NCBI RefSeq assembly: GCF_000176915.2
Contig: NC_014844.1
Location: 3,410,001 to 3,474,000, forward strand
DNA: 64,000 bases
Direction: 5' to 3'
From: Pseudodesulfovibrio aespoeensis Aspo-2
GTDB lineage: Bacteria > Desulfobacterota > Desulfovibrionia > Desulfovibrionales > Desulfovibrionaceae
The position numbers were made by a program, and so were the translations under genes. The number at the start of each line of letters is the position of its first letter. The first letter of the stretch is position 1. The notes beneath the pieces are model-generated. The model saw only the letters and a program-made list of their open reading frames with translations. It did no database searches and was not told the DNA's origin. Of the stretch, positions 27,864-35,555 are shown in pieces.

Positions 27864-27976
27864 TTGAGCAAAGGAAACCATTCCGGGCGAAGTTATAATA
27901 GCCCCGGCCCGGCTGGGTGGTATGTGTTTGATGGTGGGGCTGCATTTTGTTGAACAACCTGATCACTGGAGGGAAT

Positions 27977-28300
27977 ATGAACCGCACAGCAATGACGATA
28001 GTCGCGTCCGCCCTGGTCGTTATGATGACCGTGTCCATGGCCTTTGCCCTGGGCGACGGCAATGGCCGCAAGGGCAAGTTTCTCTACCGCAAGAACTGCC
28101 GCTCCTGTCACGACGGGAAGAGCGCGGCGGACCTGAGCCCGGCGGACCGGACCCAGGCCGAGTGGAAGGCCACCTTTGCCGACATGGGCAAGATCAAGTG
28201 CAGCGACGGCTGGACCATCAGCAAGGAAGAGCTCAACGACATCTACACCTACCTGTACGAGTACGCCAAGGATTCTCCGTCCCCGGCCAAGTGCAGCTAA
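27977..28300 (+). CDS. Periplasmic monoheme c-type cytochrome
   Basis: 107 aa. A signal peptide (IVASALVVMMTVSMAFAL) precedes one heme site, CRSCH, near residue 50. It is probably the periplasmic electron carrier for the reductase encoded next. The start at 27977 follows GGAGGGAAT. This is the first gene after the operator-controlled promoter; a strong GC-rich hairpin separates it from the molybdoenzyme gene and may stabilise or attenuate the message. Confidence 0.87.
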   Translation: MNRTAMTIVASALVVMMTVSMAFALGDGNGRKGKFLYRKNCRSCHDGKSAADLSPADRTQAEWKATFADMGKIKCSDGWTISKEELNDIYTYLYEYAKDSPSPAKCS

Positions 28301-28445: not shown

Positions 28446-30650
28446 ATGCCGGACTCCACCACCACGCTCTCCCGCCGCGACTTCTTCAAGGCCTCCGGCC
28501 TGATGGCGGCTGCCGCCGTGGGCGGCCCGGCCCTGCTGGGCGGCCTGCGCAAGGCCCATGCAGCCACCATGACCCCTTCCATGGCTCCGGCCCGGGACTC
28601 GAAGTTCTCGGTCTGCGACATGTGCTTCAACAAGTGCGGGCTGATCGCCCGCGTCGAGAACGGCGTGGTCGCCAAACTCGATCCCAACCCCAAGTTTCTC
28701 AAGTCGCGCGGCATGTTGTGTGCGCGCGGCAATGCGGGCATCAGCCACGTCTATGACCCGGACCGGCTCAAGCACCCCCTGCTGCGCAAGGGCGAGCGGG
28801 GCGAGGGCAAGTGGCAGCGCATCCCGTGGGACGAGGCCCTGGACATGGCCGCCCAGAAGATGGCCGAGGTGCGCGAAAAGTACCTGCCCTGCGGCCACCT
28901 CTTCTCAGCCGGGACCGACATGCACTCCCTGTTCGTGGGGCGGCTGGCCGAGGTCTACGGCTCGTTCAACATCACCTCCCACGAATCCCTGTGTCTGGTT
29001 TCGGGCAACCGAGCCTTTCTCGACACCTTTGGCGAGGAACCCTTTGCCGACGTGCTCCACTCCAAGTACGTGATCATGGCCGGGGCCAACCGCTTCGAGG
29101 CGCTGGTCACCCCGGACTCCATGGACCTGATGACCGCCATGCGCGAGCACGGCTGCAAGCTGGTGACGCTCGACCCGCGCTACACCAAGACCGCGGCCCT
29201 GTCCGACGAGTGGTATCCCATCAAGCCCGGCACGGACATGGCCTTCATGCTCGCCCTGGCCCACGTCATCATCGGCGAGGGGCTTTACGACCCCCAGTGG
29301 ATCGCGGAGAAGACCTACGGCATGGAACAGCTCATGGAGCACGTCAAACAGTACACCCCGGAATTCGCCGCCGCAGAGTGCGGGGTTCCGGCCTCGGACA
29401 TCGCCCGCATCGCCCGCGAGCTGGCCGCGGCAGCCCCGGCCTCCATGGTCTATCCGGGTCGCCGCAGCTCGGACTACGAGAACTCCACCCAGATCCGCCG
29501 CTCGTTCGCCATCGTCAACGGGCTGCTGGGCAACTGGGACCGCCCCGGCGGACTGCTGGCCGCCCGTGCCGTCGGGCTGCGGGGCGTGCCCTACGACGCG
29601 CCCTGGTACGACGAGAACCACGAGGACCGCATCGAGGCGGGCAAGGTGCCCATGATGTTCGAGCACGAGGGCAGCTTCATGGTCACGCGCGACTCGGTGC
29701 TGGCCGACGACCCGTATCCCATCCGGGGCTGGTTCATCTACAAGACCAACCCCATGGCCACCGCACCGGACCGCAAGAAGACCATCGAGATGATGCACAA
29801 GATGGATTTCGTCACCGTGGTGGACATCGCCATGTCCGACACGGCCTGGTACGCGGACCTGGTCCTGCCCTCCCAGAGCTATCTGGAGCGCATCGACCCC
29901 TGCTCCGGCCTCCAGGGCTCGTCCGCCTGCGCCTGCGTGGTCAAGCGCGACCCGGTCATCGAGCCGCTCTACGAATCGCGCTCGATCTTCGACATCCTCA
30001 AGGGCATCGCCGGTCGGCTCGACCTTGGCGAATACTTTGACTTCACCATCGAGGAATTCCGCGAAAAGCAGCTGGCCGGGCTGCCCGGCGCCGAAGGGAT
30101 CATGGACCGCGACGGCGTCTACTACAATCCGAGCAAGGTCTACGGCATCTATGAAGGCATGGTCTACAAGACCCTGTCCCAGAAGGTGGAGCTGTACAAC
30201 CAGCGCTACGAGCAGATGGGCATCGACCCCCTGCCCCGCTACACCCCGCCGACTGAGCCGCCCAGGAACCAGTTCCGGCTGGTCATCGGGCGCAACGCCA
30301 TGGTCACCCAGGGATCCACCACCAACAACGCCCTGCTGCACGAATTCGTGCCTACCAACACCCTGTGGATCAACCCCGGCCCTGCCGCACAGCTGGGCAT
30401 CGCTGACAATGATCTGGTGGAGGTGTCGAGCGCGGTGGGCCGCCAGTCGCTGCGGGCCGAGGTCACGGACAAGATCCGCGAGGACACGGTCTACATGCTG
30501 ACCGGGTTCAACACCCTGTCCACCCAGCAGAAGCTGGCCCACGGCAACGGCGCGAGCATCGCCGAGATACTCGATGGCCGCTACGACACCGTGACCGGCA
30601 ACGCGGCCCTGCACCAGACATTTGTGACCGTAACAAGGAAGGTGGCATGA
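28446..30650 (+). CDS. Tat-exported molybdopterin oxidoreductase, polysulfide/thiosulfate reductase type (PsrA/PhsA-like)
   Basis: 734 aa, matching catalytic subunits of polysulfide or thiosulfate reductases. The twin-arginine signal is SRRDFFKASG. The [4Fe-4S] ligands are the Cys in CDMCFNKC plus the one in GMLCARG, spaced as in the DMSO-reductase superfamily. The Mo ligand is the Cys in SHESLCLVSG, so the active site uses Cys, not Sec. The C-terminal Mo-cofactor domain is seen at NQFRLVIGRNAMVTQG. The location is periplasmic. The FeS and cytochrome b partners follow with overlapping codons. Substrate among polysulfide, thiosulfate and tetrathionate is not settled by sequence, but the rhodanese and persulfide-sensor context favours polysulfide/persulfide. 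Confidence 0.9.
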   Translation: MPDSTTTLSRRDFFKASGLMAAAAVGGPALLGGLRKAHAATMTPSMAPARDSKFSVCDMCFNKCGLIARVENGVVAKLDPNPKFLKSRGMLCARGNAGISHVYDPDRLKHPLLRKGERGEGKWQRIPWDEALDMAAQKMAEVREKYLPCGHLFSAGTDMHSLFVGRLAEVYGSFNITSHESLCLVSGNRAFLDTFGEEPFADVLHSKYVIMAGANRFEALVTPDSMDLMTAMREHGCKLVTLDPRYTKTAALSDEWYPIKPGTDMAFMLALAHVIIGEGLYDPQWIAEKTYGMEQLMEHVKQYTPEFAAAECGVPASDIARIARELAAAAPASMVYPGRRSSDYENSTQIRRSFAIVNGLLGNWDRPGGLLAARAVGLRGVPYDAPWYDENHEDRIEAGKVPMMFEHEGSFMVTRDSVLADDPYPIRGWFIYKTNPMATAPDRKKTIEMMHKMDFVTVVDIAMSDTAWYADLVLPSQSYLERIDPCSGLQGSSACACVVKRDPVIEPLYESRSIFDILKGIAGRLDLGEYFDFTIEEFREKQLAGLPGAEGIMDRDGVYYNPSKVYGIYEGMVYKTLSQKVELYNQRYEQMGIDPLPRYTPPTEPPRNQFRLVIGRNAMVTQGSTTNNALLHEFVPTNTLWINPGPAAQLGIADNDLVEVSSAVGRQSLRAEVTDKIREDTVYMLTGFNTLSTQQKLAHGNGASIAEILDGRYDTVTGNAALHQTFVTVTRKVA

Positions 30651-31414
30651 TGGCACGGCAACTGGCAATGGTCATCGACGCGGCCAAGTGCATAGACTGC
30701 AAGGCCTGCGTGGCTTCCTGCAAGGTGGCCAACCACACGCCCGAGGGCCAGTGGCGCAACTGGATCAAGCATGAGGACGCCTCGCCCTCTCCGGGCGCGG
30801 GCACAAGCAAGACACGCTTCCAGCCCGGCGCGTGCATGCACTGCGACAACCCCACCTGCGTGGCCGCCTGCCCCACCGGGGCCACCTACAAAGACCCGGA
30901 AACCGGCGAAGTGGTCATTGACGACGGGCTGTGCATCGGCTGCGGCAACTGCATCCCGGCCTGCCCCTACCACGCCCGGTTCCGCAACGCCCAGAAGCGC
31001 AAGGCGGACAAGTGCAACTACTGTCCGGAGCGTCGGGCCGCCGGGCTCTCGCCCGCCTGCGTGGACACCTGCCCGACCAAGGCGCGCGTGTTCGGCGACA
31101 TCAACGACCACCAGAGCGAGGCCGGACGGCTCTATCTGGCCAACAAAGACCGGCTGACCAGGGTGACTGCCCTGACCGACACCAAGCCCAACATGTTCTA
31201 CCTCGGCGACCCCGGCCCCGGCGCCTGGGGCGGCGAGGCCGTGGTGCCCGCCTCCATGGTAGCCATGAAGCAGTCGGCCCCGTTCATCAAGGGCATCGTG
31301 GCCCTGTCGGGCCTCGGCGTGCTGGTCATGCTCGGCCGCCAGCTGCTGGTCGGGAGTGGCGACAAATCCTCGGATTCCGATCATTCCAGCGGCAAGGAGG
31401 ATTCCGATGCCTAG
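30647..31414 (+). CDS. Four-cluster ferredoxin subunit of the molybdoenzyme (PsrB/PhsB-like) with C-terminal anchor
   Basis: 255 aa. Cys motifs for four [4Fe-4S] clusters: CIDCKACVASC, CMHCDNPTCVAACP, CIGCGNCIPACP and the CNYC...CVDTCP pair. A hydrophobic helix (IKGIVALSGLGVLVML) near residue 225 is followed by a Ser/Asp-rich tail, which would anchor the subunit to the membrane. It carries electrons between cytochrome b and the Mo subunit. The start overlaps the previous stop by ATGA; 8 bases overlap the next gene. Confidence 0.92.
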   Translation: MMARQLAMVIDAAKCIDCKACVASCKVANHTPEGQWRNWIKHEDASPSPGAGTSKTRFQPGACMHCDNPTCVAACPTGATYKDPETGEVVIDDGLCIGCGNCIPACPYHARFRNAQKRKADKCNYCPERRAAGLSPACVDTCPTKARVFGDINDHQSEAGRLYLANKDRLTRVTALTDTKPNMFYLGDPGPGAWGGEAVVPASMVAMKQSAPFIKGIVALSGLGVLVMLGRQLLVGSGDKSSDSDHSSGKEDSDA

Positions 31415-32123
31415 GACGCACAAGCGGCACGACCGCTCCGACATCTTCATCCATTGGTTCAATGCGGCCTGCTGGCTGCTGCTCCTGCTCACCGGCGTGG
31501 GGCTGATCCAGAACCCGGCCATCGACCCCTTTGGCTCCGGATACCCGCAGGCCCTGCGCTCGCTGGTGGGCGGCGGAGCCGCCCTGCTTGCCCTCCACGA
31601 GGGCATCGGGGTGCTGTGGATACTCGGCTTTGTCTTCTATCTGATTGTCAACTTCAAGGGAGCCAGGTTCTTCCTGGCCGAAATATTCTCGGTCAGCCCG
31701 GCCCGCGACATGGCCTGGATGGTCAGGAAGATGGTTCTGATGACCCTGGGCCCCAAGGCGCTCAAGGGAGTGGGCATGGACCCGGAGCTGCCCGACCAGG
31801 GCTACTACAACATGGGTCAGAAGGCGTTCGCCCAGGCCAGCGTGGTCGGCGGCGTGGTCATCGCTGCGACCGGCGTGATCATGCTCCTGTCCGACCGCAC
31901 CTTTGGCGCGGACTCGACCGGGCTGGTCGGCTGGGCCGTGACCCTGCACTTCATCGCCGTGGGACTGGTCTTCGCCGGGCTGCTGGTCCACATCTACATG
32001 GCGGCCATCTCGCCCGAGGAGCGCCCTGGCTTCAAGTCCATGTTCACCGGCGTGGTGCCCGACGGCTACGCCAAGCACCACCACCGGCTGTGGTGGGAAA
32101 AGATCAGGAACGACGGCGAGTGA
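31407..32123 (+). CDS. Cytochrome b membrane subunit (PhsC/FdnI-like)
   Basis: 238 aa with four hydrophobic helices (FNAACWLLLLLTGVGLI, GIGVLWILGFVFYLIVNF, ASVVGGVVIAATGVIMLL, TLHFIAVGLVFAGLLVHIYM). His residues placed as in di-heme cytochrome b are seen in FIHWFNAACW, LHEGIG, LHFIAVG and LVHIYM. It is the quinol-oxidising anchor of the reductase. It is of the FdnI/PhsC type rather than the NrfD type found in many Psr complexes. The start at 31407 follows AAGGAGG. Confidence 0.88.
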   Translation: MPRTHKRHDRSDIFIHWFNAACWLLLLLTGVGLIQNPAIDPFGSGYPQALRSLVGGGAALLALHEGIGVLWILGFVFYLIVNFKGARFFLAEIFSVSPARDMAWMVRKMVLMTLGPKALKGVGMDPELPDQGYYNMGQKAFAQASVVGGVVIAATGVIMLLSDRTFGADSTGLVGWAVTLHFIAVGLVFAGLLVHIYMAAISPEERPGFKSMFTGVVPDGYAKHHHRLWWEKIRNDGE

Positions 32124-32218: not shown

Positions 32219-33316
32219 ATGCACAAGACACGCATTCTGATAGCCATGCTGCTGGCCCTGGCCCTGGCAGCGGCCACCCCGGCCCTGGCCGAGGAGGGCG
32301 CCAAGCCCAAGTTCAAGGAATTCCATTCCATCGTGGATTACGCCTTTGTGGCCAAGCATGCCAAGATGCCCAAGCCCAAGGACGTGATGATCATCGACTC
32401 GCGGCCCTACAAGCCCACCTTTGTGGCCGGATACATCCCCACGGCGGTATCCATCCCCACCAGCCAGTTTGAGAAGATGACCGACCAGCTGCCCGCGAAC
32501 AAGGCGGCCACGCTGATCTTCTACTGCGGCGGGTTCGACTGCCCGCTCTCGCACAAGGCGGCCTTCATGGCCGAGGCGCTGGGCTACACCAACGTCCATG
32601 TCTACGCTGCCGGGTATCCGGACTGGAAGAAGAAGGCCCCCTACCATTCCATCGGGGTGGAGACGGTCATGGAGATGATGACCAAGGGCGAGAAGTACAT
32701 CCTGGTGGACGCCCGCCCGGCCAAGCTCTTCCTGGAAGGGTCCATCCCGTCCTCCATCTCCATCCCTGAGCGGGAGTTCGCGGACAAGCGGGGCATGCTG
32801 CCCGTGGGCAAGGACGAGGTCTCCCTGGTCTACTACTGCGGCGGGTATGACTGCGTGCTCTCCCACAAGTCGGCCATCAAGGCCCGCGCGCTGGGCTACA
32901 AGAACGTCCTGGTGGCCGAGGCCGGATACCCCGCATGGCAGAAGCTCTATGGCTCCGCGGGCGGCGTGGCCGTCAAGGCGGGCGAGGCCGAGGGAGCCAT
33001 CGACCTTGAGCAGTTCAAGGCCATCCTCAAGGACAAGCCCGAATCCATCATGCTCATCGACGTGCGCGACCGCGAGGAGTTTGCCGTCAGCCACTTCCCC
33101 ACTGCGGTCAACATGACCGTGGACATGGTCGAGAAGCAGGCCGCCCAGATGCCCGTGGACAAGCCCATCGTCTTTGTCTGTGCCACGGGCGCGCGCTCGG
33201 GCGAGGCATACTACCTGCTCAAGGACCTGCGCCCCGAGATCAAGGATGTCTACTACCTTGAGGCGACCATCAAGTTCGGCGACAACAACAGTTACGAGAT
33301 CACACCCAACAAGTAG
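32219..33316 (+). CDS. Periplasmic triple-rhodanese sulfurtransferase
   Basis: 365 aa. A signal peptide (MLLALALAAATPALAEE) precedes three rhodanese domains. Active-site loops: domain 1 YCGGFDC (Cys103, Cys108), domain 2 YCGGYDC (Cys207, Cys212), domain 3 VCATGARS (Cys321). Domains 1 and 2 have a six-residue CxxxxC loop instead of the simple CxxGxR(S) loop. The protein probably carries sulfane sulfur to or from the reductase. It sits 95 bases after the cytochrome b gene. Three tandem domains are uncommon; two is usual for thiosulfate sulfurtransferases. Confidence 0.9.
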   Translation: MHKTRILIAMLLALALAAATPALAEEGAKPKFKEFHSIVDYAFVAKHAKMPKPKDVMIIDSRPYKPTFVAGYIPTAVSIPTSQFEKMTDQLPANKAATLIFYCGGFDCPLSHKAAFMAEALGYTNVHVYAAGYPDWKKKAPYHSIGVETVMEMMTKGEKYILVDARPAKLFLEGSIPSSISIPEREFADKRGMLPVGKDEVSLVYYCGGYDCVLSHKSAIKARALGYKNVLVAEAGYPAWQKLYGSAGGVAVKAGEAEGAIDLEQFKAILKDKPESIMLIDVRDREEFAVSHFPTAVNMTVDMVEKQAAQMPVDKPIVFVCATGARSGEAYYLLKDLRPEIKDVYYLEATIKFGDNNSYEITPNK

Positions 33317-33419
33317 CCATTGACCACTGCGGGGCCGGGAAGGCACAACCCCTGTCACCTCCTCCATCCCGGCCCCGCGCCCTCCCTGCCATGCCAGGGA
33401 GGGGAGGAGCGCGCGGAAG

Positions 33420-34442
33420 ATGAAGCCCCTTTCTATGGCCATCTGGCTGCTCATCGCCCTGCTTCCCGCCCTGTTCCCCGACGCCCGCGCGGACGCCGAC
33501 ACAGACGGGGACGAAGCACTCTGGTGGTCCGCCGCCCAGGCCGAGAGCGAGCGCGACGGCTACAAGCTCATCGACACCGACCAGTTGCTCATGCTGATCA
33601 ACTCCGGCCAGCCCCCCCTGATCATCGATGTCCGGGCCGACTACGAGTTTGAGGCCGGACATGTGACCGGGGCCGCGAATCTCGAATTCGACCTGGGCGA
33701 CCGGGGTGACCTGGACACGGCCAAGCGCACGGCCTTCGCAGCCCTGGCCGGGCCGGACAAATCGCGGCCCATCGTCTTCTATTGCCGCAGCTTCAGGTGA
33801 CTGCGCAGCGGCATTGCAGCGCGCTGGGCAGCGCGCATGGGGTATGAGAAGGTGTACAGACACCCAGGCGGATTCCACGAGTGGGAGGCGGCCCATCCGG
33901 AGCTGGTGGTCGGAACCGTGCCCGAACAGCGCGCCCTGGCGCCGGGCGATTCCTTCCCGGATTGCCGTCTGGCGCTGTTGAGCGGCGACCACGACCGCGA
34001 GTATCTGGACCTGCCCGCCGACGCCAAGTGGCTCGCCCTTGCCGACCTGAGGGCGCGCTTCGTGCTCATCCAGCTCTACAACACCATGTGCCACGAGTGC
34101 GTGCGCGAGACCAAGATGCTCAGCCGGTTCTTCGAGCGGGTGGAGGCCGACCCGGTCCTGGCAGGCCGGCTCAAGATCATCGGGGTGGGGATATACGACA
34201 CCAACCTCAAGGTGGTGAAGTTCCGGAAGCATTACGACGTGCTCTACCCGCTGTTCGCGGATCAGCACGGGGAGATCTTCGGCTGCCTGGGCCAGGCCCA
34301 GGTGCCGCTGGCCTACCTGCTGCGGGCCAGGGGCGACGGAACCTGGAACATCGAGCTGATCAAGCGGGGGTATTTCGAGCCGGACGAAACCTTCCTGAAC
34401 ACACTCCGGGATGCGGTCATCCGCTCGGACTGCACCGACTAG
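33420..34442 (+). CDS. Rhodanese-thioredoxin fusion with an in-frame TGA, candidate selenoprotein
   Basis: 340 residues if TGA at 33798-33800 is read as selenocysteine (residue 127). A signal peptide (SMAIWLLIALLPALFP) is followed by a rhodanese domain whose loop reads YCRSFR-U-LRSGIAARWAARMGY. Aligned to the triple rhodanese (YCGGFDCPLSHKAAFMAEALGY) the spacing is identical to the following GY and GG, and the TGA falls exactly on the second Cys. The first Cys (122) is kept. The reading frame stays open and homologous past the stop to residue 340, with a thioredoxin/TlpA-like domain carrying CHEC (about 224-227). A SECIS-like hairpin follows. The alternative is a recent nonsense mutation. Confidence 0.75.
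33819..33836 (+). promoter_or_regulatory. Putative bacterial SECIS hairpin
   Basis: GCGCGCT (33819-33825) and AGCGCGC (33830-33836) pair perfectly over 7 bp with the loop GGGC. The loop starts 25 bases after the TGA at 33798-33800. This agrees with the bacterial SECIS consensus (upper stem 4-16 bp, apical loop 3-14 nt with a G in its first two positions, about 16-37 nt from UGA). The GC content of this genome makes chance hairpins more frequent, so this alone is not proof. Confidence 0.6.
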
Positions 34443-35092
34443 GTGTGGGCCGGGATATCTCCGGGGTTTCGATCAAGGATATCAAGGACATCGAGCAGCA
34501 GCCCGGCGCTGGCTGCGTAGATCGGATGCGGACGGCCACTTTCAAGAGCCCTGGCGAACCGGCCCACCCAGGGGCGCATGACCTCGCGGGCAAAGGCGAG
34601 CCCGCTGGCCTCTGACTGGCCCTCGTTCTGCGCCCAGGCCGTGGCCAGCAGGTGGTAGAGGTATTCGAGCTCCACGGCCAGATGGTCGGGCGGCTCGTTT
34701 GCCGGGCCATGGATTTCCAGCCCGGCATCGGCCAGCCGCTGGCGCATGGCCAGGGCGCTTTGGCCCATGACACGCGGCGCGGTGCCCAGGTGGCACGATT
34801 CGTAGAGCGGGGCGGCCACCCCGCCGCTGGCCGCGATGAACAGGCGGACGTATTCGGTTTCCAGGTCAGCCAGGCCATCAGGAGCGCCGGGAGCCGCGTC
34901 TTGCAGATTGTCGAGGATGGCCGTAAGGTGCGCGAACCGGGACGGGACCTGCCCCTTGAGCTCGGGCAGTCCGGCCTCGAAAAGGGCCTGCCAGCCCGCC
35001 TGCGACGGGCCGCGAAACACGGCCACCACAAGCTCGATGGCATTGAGCAGAAAGACCTGCTCGGCTTGATTGGTGATGGTAAAACCGGCCAT
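34439..35092 (-). CDS. TorD/DmsD-family molybdoenzyme maturation chaperone
   Basis: 217 aa. The all-helical chaperone family is shown by ETEYVRLFIAASGGVAAPLYESC, then VELEYLYHLLATAWA and REVMRPWVGRFARAL. Such proteins bind the Tat signal of the Mo subunit until cofactor insertion, which fits the PhsA-like protein. It lies on the opposite strand, convergent with the Sec rhodanese gene and overlapping it by 4 bases (CTAG). An ATG ten codons earlier overlaps the operator at 35121, so the start at 35092, with GAGGGG upstream, was chosen. Confidence 0.85.
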   Translation of the reverse strand: MAGFTITNQAEQVFLLNAIELVVAVFRGPSQAGWQALFEAGLPELKGQVPSRFAHLTAILDNLQDAAPGAPDGLADLETEYVRLFIAASGGVAAPLYESCHLGTAPRVMGQSALAMRQRLADAGLEIHGPANEPPDHLAVELEYLYHLLATAWAQNEGQSEASGLAFAREVMRPWVGRFARALESGRPHPIYAASAGLLLDVLDILDRNPGDIPAHT

Positions 35093-35120
35093 GGCGGACA
35101 CCCCTCTGTTGTCTGTGCAC

Positions 35121-35142
35121 ATACCCTACGAGAGTAGGGTAA
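35121..35142. promoter_or_regulatory. CstR-type operator between the chaperone and regulator genes
   Basis: TACCCTAC (35122-35129) and GTAGGGTA (35134-35141) form an inverted repeat with spacer GAGA, keeping the ATACCC...GGGTA half-sites. It sits between the divergent chaperone gene and the regulator gene, suggesting autoregulation and control of the chaperone. Confidence 0.75.
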
Positions 35143-35243
35143 TTCAGCCGGACACGCAATGTCGGCGGCCGCGAAACGAGTGATCACGAAACAAGCCAAC
35201 GGTCTGCCGACAGCAGGCCGCAGTGACGGGCAAGGAGAACGCC

Positions 35244-35555
35244 ATGAACGCGAATGCGAGCACGAGCGAGAAGGAGCAGGAGCAGATCAAGCACAATGTC
35301 CTCTCGCGCATGAAGCGTATCGAAGGACAGGTGCGAGGCATCCAGCGCATGATCGAGGATGGCAAGGAATGCGAAGACATTCTGGTCCAGGTGCGCGCTG
35401 TGCGCTCGGCGCTCCAGTCGGCCAACAAGCTCATCCTCAAACGGTACATGCTGCGCTGCTACAACGAGGCCGTGCTGGAAAGCCACGACGGCCACGACGA
35501 GCATGAAGCCCTGGAAAAGTTCATCAAGGTGCTGACCGGATTCCTGGAGGGCTAG
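35244..35555 (+). CDS. CsoR/CstR-family (DUF156) transcriptional regulator, probably persulfide-sensing
   Basis: 103 aa. The helical DUF156 core reads SRMKRIEGQVRGIQRMIEDGKECEDIL and VRSALQSANKLIL. Cys43 and Cys72 are 29 residues apart, as in copper CsoR and in CstR. The copper-ligand His four residues before the second Cys is Tyr68 (KRYMLRC), so this is not a normal Cu(I) sensor and fits the dithiol persulfide sensor CstR, in which reactive sulfur crosslinks the Cys pair and releases DNA. Three ATACCC-type palindromes flank the neighbouring sulfur genes. The start at 35244 follows AAGGAGA. Confidence 0.85.
   Translation: MNANASTSEKEQEQIKHNVLSRMKRIEGQVRGIQRMIEDGKECEDILVQVRAVRSALQSANKLILKRYMLRCYNEAVLESHDGHDEHEALEKFIKVLTGFLEG

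Follow-up and report, generated by a model that had tools for sequence, protein, structure and literature searches.

Several forms of rhodanese selenoproteins have been described. The available parts of a 2026 review list the forms UxxS, UxxG, CxU, UxxG, and UxxxxU, and contain no CxxxxU form (PMC13188914). Excerpts of earlier surveys also present rhodanese-related selenoproteins and hold no CxxxxU motif (PMC1088965, PMC2398784, PMC9312934). A marine deltaproteobacterium has a Sec-bearing rhodanese-like domain together with a sulfurtransferase; since the accessible text gives no motif for it, this protein could be of the Cys-x4-Sec type (PMC8318568). Rhodanese is absent from the main text of the deep-Sep paper. 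A literature search, which covered part of the relevant texts, found no description of a Cys-x4-Sec rhodanese, and the original description of TsoB, a rhodanese/DsbD fusion-like protein, may contain one. In the phylum considered here, six TsoB-type genes (L100, L101, L105, L148, L161, and L162) have two in-frame TGA codons, and their loop reads UAGLTU in five and UAGLAU in one.

The window analysed in this study is a stretch of 64,000 nt of Pseudodesulfovibrio aespoeensis Aspo-2, a bacterium related to sulfate reducers with a genome of 3.63 Mb in one contig. The product of its gene at 33420–34442 has TsoB (NF045694) as the best NCBIfam match, with 100 bits over residues 33–158 and a cut-off of 805 bits. 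TsoB membership is ruled out by this score and by the first loop residue, where all 48 fusions have Cys and so depart from UxxxxU. No match above the TsoB cut-off was found in the genome of the strain, and the window protein and nine further Cys-x4-Sec proteins all stay below every listed NCBIfam cut-off. The first-pass annotation of this DNA was aware of no described selenoprotein with such a fusion of rhodanese and thioredoxin-like domains. The literature search agrees with it as far as the covered texts go, but the Sec position itself has a precedent in TsoB, which also carries Sec at the second loop position. Judged from the sequence, the selenoprotein gene is real, and its CxxxxU rhodanese is a variant not found described in the portions of the literature at hand.

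Gene structure and the in-frame TGA codon

The gene lies on the plus strand and runs from ATG 33420 to TAG 34440–34442. The TGA at 33798–33800 is the sole in-frame stop between them and, when read as Sec127, gives a protein of 340 residues. Reading of the frame thus bears out the first-pass annotation, which had placed a single TGA inside a rhodanese loop with the frame open on both sides. The rhodanese domain (residues 54–157) scores 64.9 bits with PF00581 against a cut-off of 22.2, and its catalytic Cys is C122, encoded at 33783–33785 on the plus strand. The loop motif is C122-RSFR-U127, in which the TGA stands five residues past the rhodanese Cys. CRSFR-TGA-LRSGIAARWAARMGY aligns with CGGFDC and CGGYDC of the triple rhodanese at 32219–33316 with identical Cys-x4-Cys spacing, and the TGA falls on the second Cys, as had been claimed. 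The loop, from the Cys to the RS turn, is 2 residues longer than in the canonical rhodaneses 6mxv and 3d1p to which it was aligned.

The C-terminal thioredoxin-like domain with a CHEC motif, also proposed earlier, is present. It is a ResA/AhpC-like domain of about residues 175–330 that scores 29.5 bits with PF00578 (AhpC-TSA) over a cut-off of 26 and aligns with ResA structures. Its CxxC is the CHEC of residues 224–227, encoded at 34089–34100 on the plus strand, and both Cys residues are found in 43 of the 48 fusions. The N-terminus of the gene product is signal-like, which suggests export. An AlphaFold2 model from five sequences has a mean pLDDT of 62.5 and a pTM of 0.50 and is too poor for the Cys-Sec distance.

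The standard code breaks the gene at the TGA, leaving ORFs of 126 residues and, from ATG 33837, 201 residues, so that a conserved component of a sulfur-respiration-like operon can escape annotation. There are 14 rhodanese matches in the genome, and only 33420–34442 has an internal stop. The observation goes beyond chance, because other species also conserve the frame, the column with Sec or Cys, and the choice of codons just after the TGA. It is almost certain that gene 33420–34442 encodes a selenoprotein.

Selenocysteine machinery

The genome contains selA (600 bits), selB (372 bits), selC (82.3 bits), and selD (326 bits), all above their cut-offs. These are the four genes to which the first-pass annotation had pointed, and selB and selC, whose absence would have spoken against Sec insertion, are both among them. 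Moreover, selD contains an in-frame TGA, as does one fdhA gene out of the two full-length formate dehydrogenase genes of the same genome. Of 74 genomes tested, 73 have a tRNA-Sec that scores at least 71 bits, among them each of the 10 tested with no-stop forms of the gene; the cut-off is 47 bits, and some ordinary tRNAs also clear it, at 47–53 bits. That the Cys forms arose because the Sec machinery was lost is ruled out by the scores of these 10 genomes. Reading of the TGA as Trp is ruled out as well, by the Cys found in relatives and by the adjoining molybdopterin and cytochrome b genes, which end in TGA.

Homologues and the Sec/Cys position

Homologues were gathered at two levels. The class survey covered 348 genomes, 76 of which gave matches with E of 1e-20 or lower, and 70 of 84 match rows were read. 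The phylum survey covered 395 genomes, with 103 matching at E 1e-15 or better, and 30 loci were read, of which 29 were new. Seven C-terminal-only loci were dropped from the residue counts and repeats were merged, leaving 90 distinct rhodanese rows including 48 fusions. Only these seven loci failed the motif filter, and L138, which has a differing flank, was taken with a looser pattern. Loci of about 196–340 residues (open frame) in other families of the phylum are related to the C-terminal domain only (L143, L144, L146, L152, and L155–L157).

Among 36 genomes of the genus, including that of Aspo-2, the TGA form is present in 24 and the no-stop form in five; one (G288) has a distant match only, with its row outside the counts, and six have none. 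Four Pseudodesulfovibrio assemblies (L025–L028) with 63–69% identity have the TGA at the same site. In another family of the phylum, f21, the fusion is found in five genomes, with TGA in two and Cys in three. Decay of the gene in this strain alone, named at the outset as a way for the selenoprotein reading to fail, was not found; it is ruled out by the 24 genus genomes with the TGA form and by the codon constraint downstream of the TGA.

In the 48 distinct full-length fusions, column 127 is Sec in 40, Cys in eight, and another residue in none, and the first loop residue is always Cys. A Cys homologue at the TGA column, which the first-pass annotation had regarded as the key evidence, is provided by L039 (TGC) and seven further distinct fusions. 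L039 belongs to the same genus, has 74% identity, and is the nearest row of the window protein on the tree with a support of 99/94. The 90 distinct rhodanese rows divide into 57 Cys/Sec, 27 Cys/Cys, and six Sec/Sec. Relatives with any other sense codon, which would have counted against Sec, number none of these 90 rows, for which the motif filter itself required Sec or Cys. The Sec/Cys label switched five times, at least four of them forced by starred branches, on a tree that was built without the Sec/Cys column under a simple model and that has a long-branch warning at its deep forks. As would be expected for a redox pair, Cys122 is invariant in the fusions and Sec127 is swapped only with Cys.

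The partner domain is less constant than the loop. Five of the 48 fusions, all of one genus (L076–L079 and L082), retain Sec after the CxxC is gone, and 17 Cys/Sec rows have no thioredoxin-like domain. A CGFxKC (Cys-x4-Cys) rhodanese family with the same loop shows no Sec in the rows read (L102–L104, L106, L140–L142, L145, L147, L149–L151, L153, L154, and L158–L160).

Candidate SECIS hairpin

A 7-bp hairpin with a GGGC loop had been described after the TGA, and it is present at 33819–33836 on the plus strand, with the loop at 33826–33829 and 25 bases from TGA to loop. Its use as stand-alone evidence did not hold. A hairpin of equal strength appears in 30% of 60 synonymous re-codings of the same peptide, so the lone hairpin is no evidence by itself and was rejected as proof. 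The same re-coding test gives a value of 0.1 or less in 10 of 58 distinct Sec sequences versus two of 11 Cys sequences. An Rfam scan of 33400–34450 returned two matches only, both far below their gathering scores.

Comparison among species is more informative. Across 23 distinct genus sequences, 89% of the stem cells are paired, and slid controls do not exceed 67%. For 13 sequences from the family's other genera, the value is 84%, with controls of no more than 68%. Pairing is 43% in 22 Sec rows that are more distant and include TsoB, with slid controls up to 56%, and 44% in 11 Cys rows. The distant rows are no better than their controls, and the stem is therefore not shared beyond the family. 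Distant Sec rows of other families (L083–L088, L064–L069, and others) are without the family hairpin; they must use another stem, or none was found. Two sister rows show changes on both sides of a single stem pair, with His replacing Arg and Val replacing Ala in the protein.

Codon choice was compared in 24 Sec genes of the genus. The excess codon identity is 0.41 at codons +1 to +16 versus 0.09 upstream (11 codons) and 0.16 downstream (151 codons), with p 0.004, and the loop-closing Ala codon is GCA in 20 of 23 genus sequences, where GCA makes up 10% of the Ala codons in those genes; because the rows are related, the p values of both are too generous, that for GCA by far. The four 16-codon windows with the highest codon identity begin at −2 to −5. 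Synonymous codons are also conserved in a second peak, which has 0.45 in the same 24 genes and lies at codons of about +111 to +127 after the TGA, and the first peak is thus not unique. Within the genome, the hairpins behind the TGA of selD (−12.6 kcal/mol, loop at +21), fdhA (−10.9 kcal/mol, +24), and the window gene (−11.8 kcal/mol, +26) are of like strength and like spacing.

Gene neighbourhood

The genes upstream resemble a sulfur-respiratory complex and are all on the plus strand. A small cytochrome c (27947–28300, mechanical ORF start; PF13442, 32.3 bits) is followed by a PsrA/PhsA-like molybdopterin catalytic subunit (28446–30650), an FeS subunit (30647–31414; PF13247, 98.3 bits), a cytochrome b561-type membrane subunit (31356–32123, mechanical ORF start; PF01292, 67.2 bits), and the triple rhodanese (32219–33316), which has the loops CGGFDC, CGGYDC, and CATGAR. 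The molybdopterin subunit scores 534.6 bits with PhsA (NF012032), under the curated cut-off of 694. Its best solved relative is 2vpw at 387 bits, whose entry name is thiosulfate reductase and which we take to be the Thermus polysulfide reductase. Its start, SRRDFFKASG, is presumably a twin-arginine-like motif. Downstream of the selenoprotein gene lie a TorD-like maturation chaperone on the minus strand (34439–35122; PF02613, 94.6 bits) and a CsoR-family regulator on the plus strand (35223–35555; PF02583, 93.7 bits). In the regulator, which is perhaps a persulfide sensor, Tyr takes the position of a His found in its CsoR and InrS relatives. In the CsoR family, loss of that His goes with persulfide sensing, as in CstR.

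Across a chosen set of 20 neighbourhoods, the molybdopterin, FeS, cytochrome b, and triple-rhodanese genes are present in all 20 and the cytochrome c in 19. The triple rhodanese adjoins the gene in 19 of the 20 and lies about 2 kb farther off at L131. The CsoR-family regulator is found in 17 and the TorD-like chaperone in 16, and in four a stand-alone Cys-x4-Sec rhodanese replaces the fusion. This gene content points to sulfane-sulfur respiration as the putative function of the operon.

Proposed mechanism and alternative explanations

The gene product is best explained as an exported selenoprotein that joins a rhodanese with a Cys122-x4-Sec127 pair to a ResA-like thioredoxin domain and is made by ordinary SelB-dependent UGA reading. 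In the proposed cycle, Cys122 would form a persulfide with sulfane sulfur drawn from polysulfide or thiosulfate. Sec127 would then attack the Cys122 persulfide, releasing sulfide and forming a Cys-Sec bond. Finally, the CHEC domain would reduce the Cys-Sec pair, with another thioredoxin-like protein taking its place where the CxxC is absent. By this presumed chemistry, the role of the protein is likely periplasmic sulfane-sulfur reduction, and a selenoprotein with a sulfane-sulfur role together with its operon is the probable reading of the locus. Assignment of Sec127 as the resolving residue is slightly favoured. The fused CxxC is proposed more tentatively as the reductant of the Cys-Sec pair in the window protein. 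The earlier suggestion of the CHEC domain as reductant stands in so far as this domain is the obvious candidate, but it does not hold everywhere: in the five fusions that lack the CxxC and the 17 Cys/Sec rows that lack the domain, another reductant must serve.

The regulator next to the gene gives the best-surviving alternative, in which the protein serves redox defence or persulfide detoxification and merely shares the cluster. Persulfide sensors exist in the CsoR family, and this member is without the His of its relatives and has homologues in most of the chosen neighbourhoods. The linkage to the respiratory complex is nevertheless tight, holding in 20 of 20 neighbourhoods, and makes this explanation unlikely. 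A second alternative, with a somewhat smaller chance still, is that the Sec protein supplies the maturing molybdoenzyme, or its cofactor, with sulfur or selenium and takes no part in sulfane-sulfur reduction. Rhodaneses can act as sulfur carriers, and the TorD-like chaperone gene is nearby in 16 of 20 neighbourhoods. Cofactor maturation, on the other hand, is cytoplasmic and the signal-like N-terminus suggests export; a redox residue pair with a thioredoxin-like partner also better suits reduction. Finally, a true stop, with a short rhodanese and a separate protein from ATG 33837 or a decayed gene, is hardly credible: even though standard translation does give the 126-residue and 201-residue ORFs and the lone hairpin is ordinary, 24 genus genomes retain the TGA inside a frame that is intact on either flank, the stretch from the TGA to ATG 33837 is conserved in frame, many relatives have Leu codons instead of that ATG, Cys replaces the TGA in relatives, and the codon positions downstream of the TGA differ as in a coding gene (0.243, 0.185, and 0.445).

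Significance

Many related species hold Sec or Cys at the loop site beside the genes of a sulfur-respiration-like complex. It is an even call whether the Cys-x4-Sec rhodaneses, as a family not found described, are an ancient and regular accessory to PsrABC/PhsABC-like sulfur respiration in the periplasm, both in the class of the window and beyond, forming a natural series with the Cys-x4-Cys loops of the neighbouring triple rhodanese and the Sec-x4-Sec loop of TsoB. If true, the series of Cys/Cys, Cys/Sec, and Sec/Sec shows how selenium tunes sulfane-sulfur reduction. Such natural loops would allow direct measurement of the value of selenium in persulfide chemistry, and the series would link selenium supply with sulfur cycling.

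Comparison with known systems

TsoB: Like the window protein, TsoB has Sec at the second loop position with the same spacing. In contrast, TsoB also has Sec at the first loop position and a DsbD-like part, whereas the window protein has Cys first and a ResA-like partner.

Other rhodanese selenoproteins: The forms UxxS, UxxG, CxU, and UxxG, as given in the available parts of the review (PMC13188914), are predicted selenoproteins that share the rhodanese fold and Sec with the window protein. Their motifs differ from CxxxxU.

ResA/TlpA thiol-disulfide oxidoreductases: The C-terminal domain of the fusion aligns with ResA structures and has CxxC in 43 of 48 fusions. The window protein differs in that this domain is fused to a Sec rhodanese, and it scores 37.7 bits against the 170 bits of NCBIfam ResA.

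PsrABC/PhsABC: The catalytic and FeS subunits of the window cluster are of the same kind as those of PsrABC/PhsABC. The window cluster further includes a cytochrome c, a cytochrome of the b561 type, and a pair of rhodanese genes, of which one has Sec.
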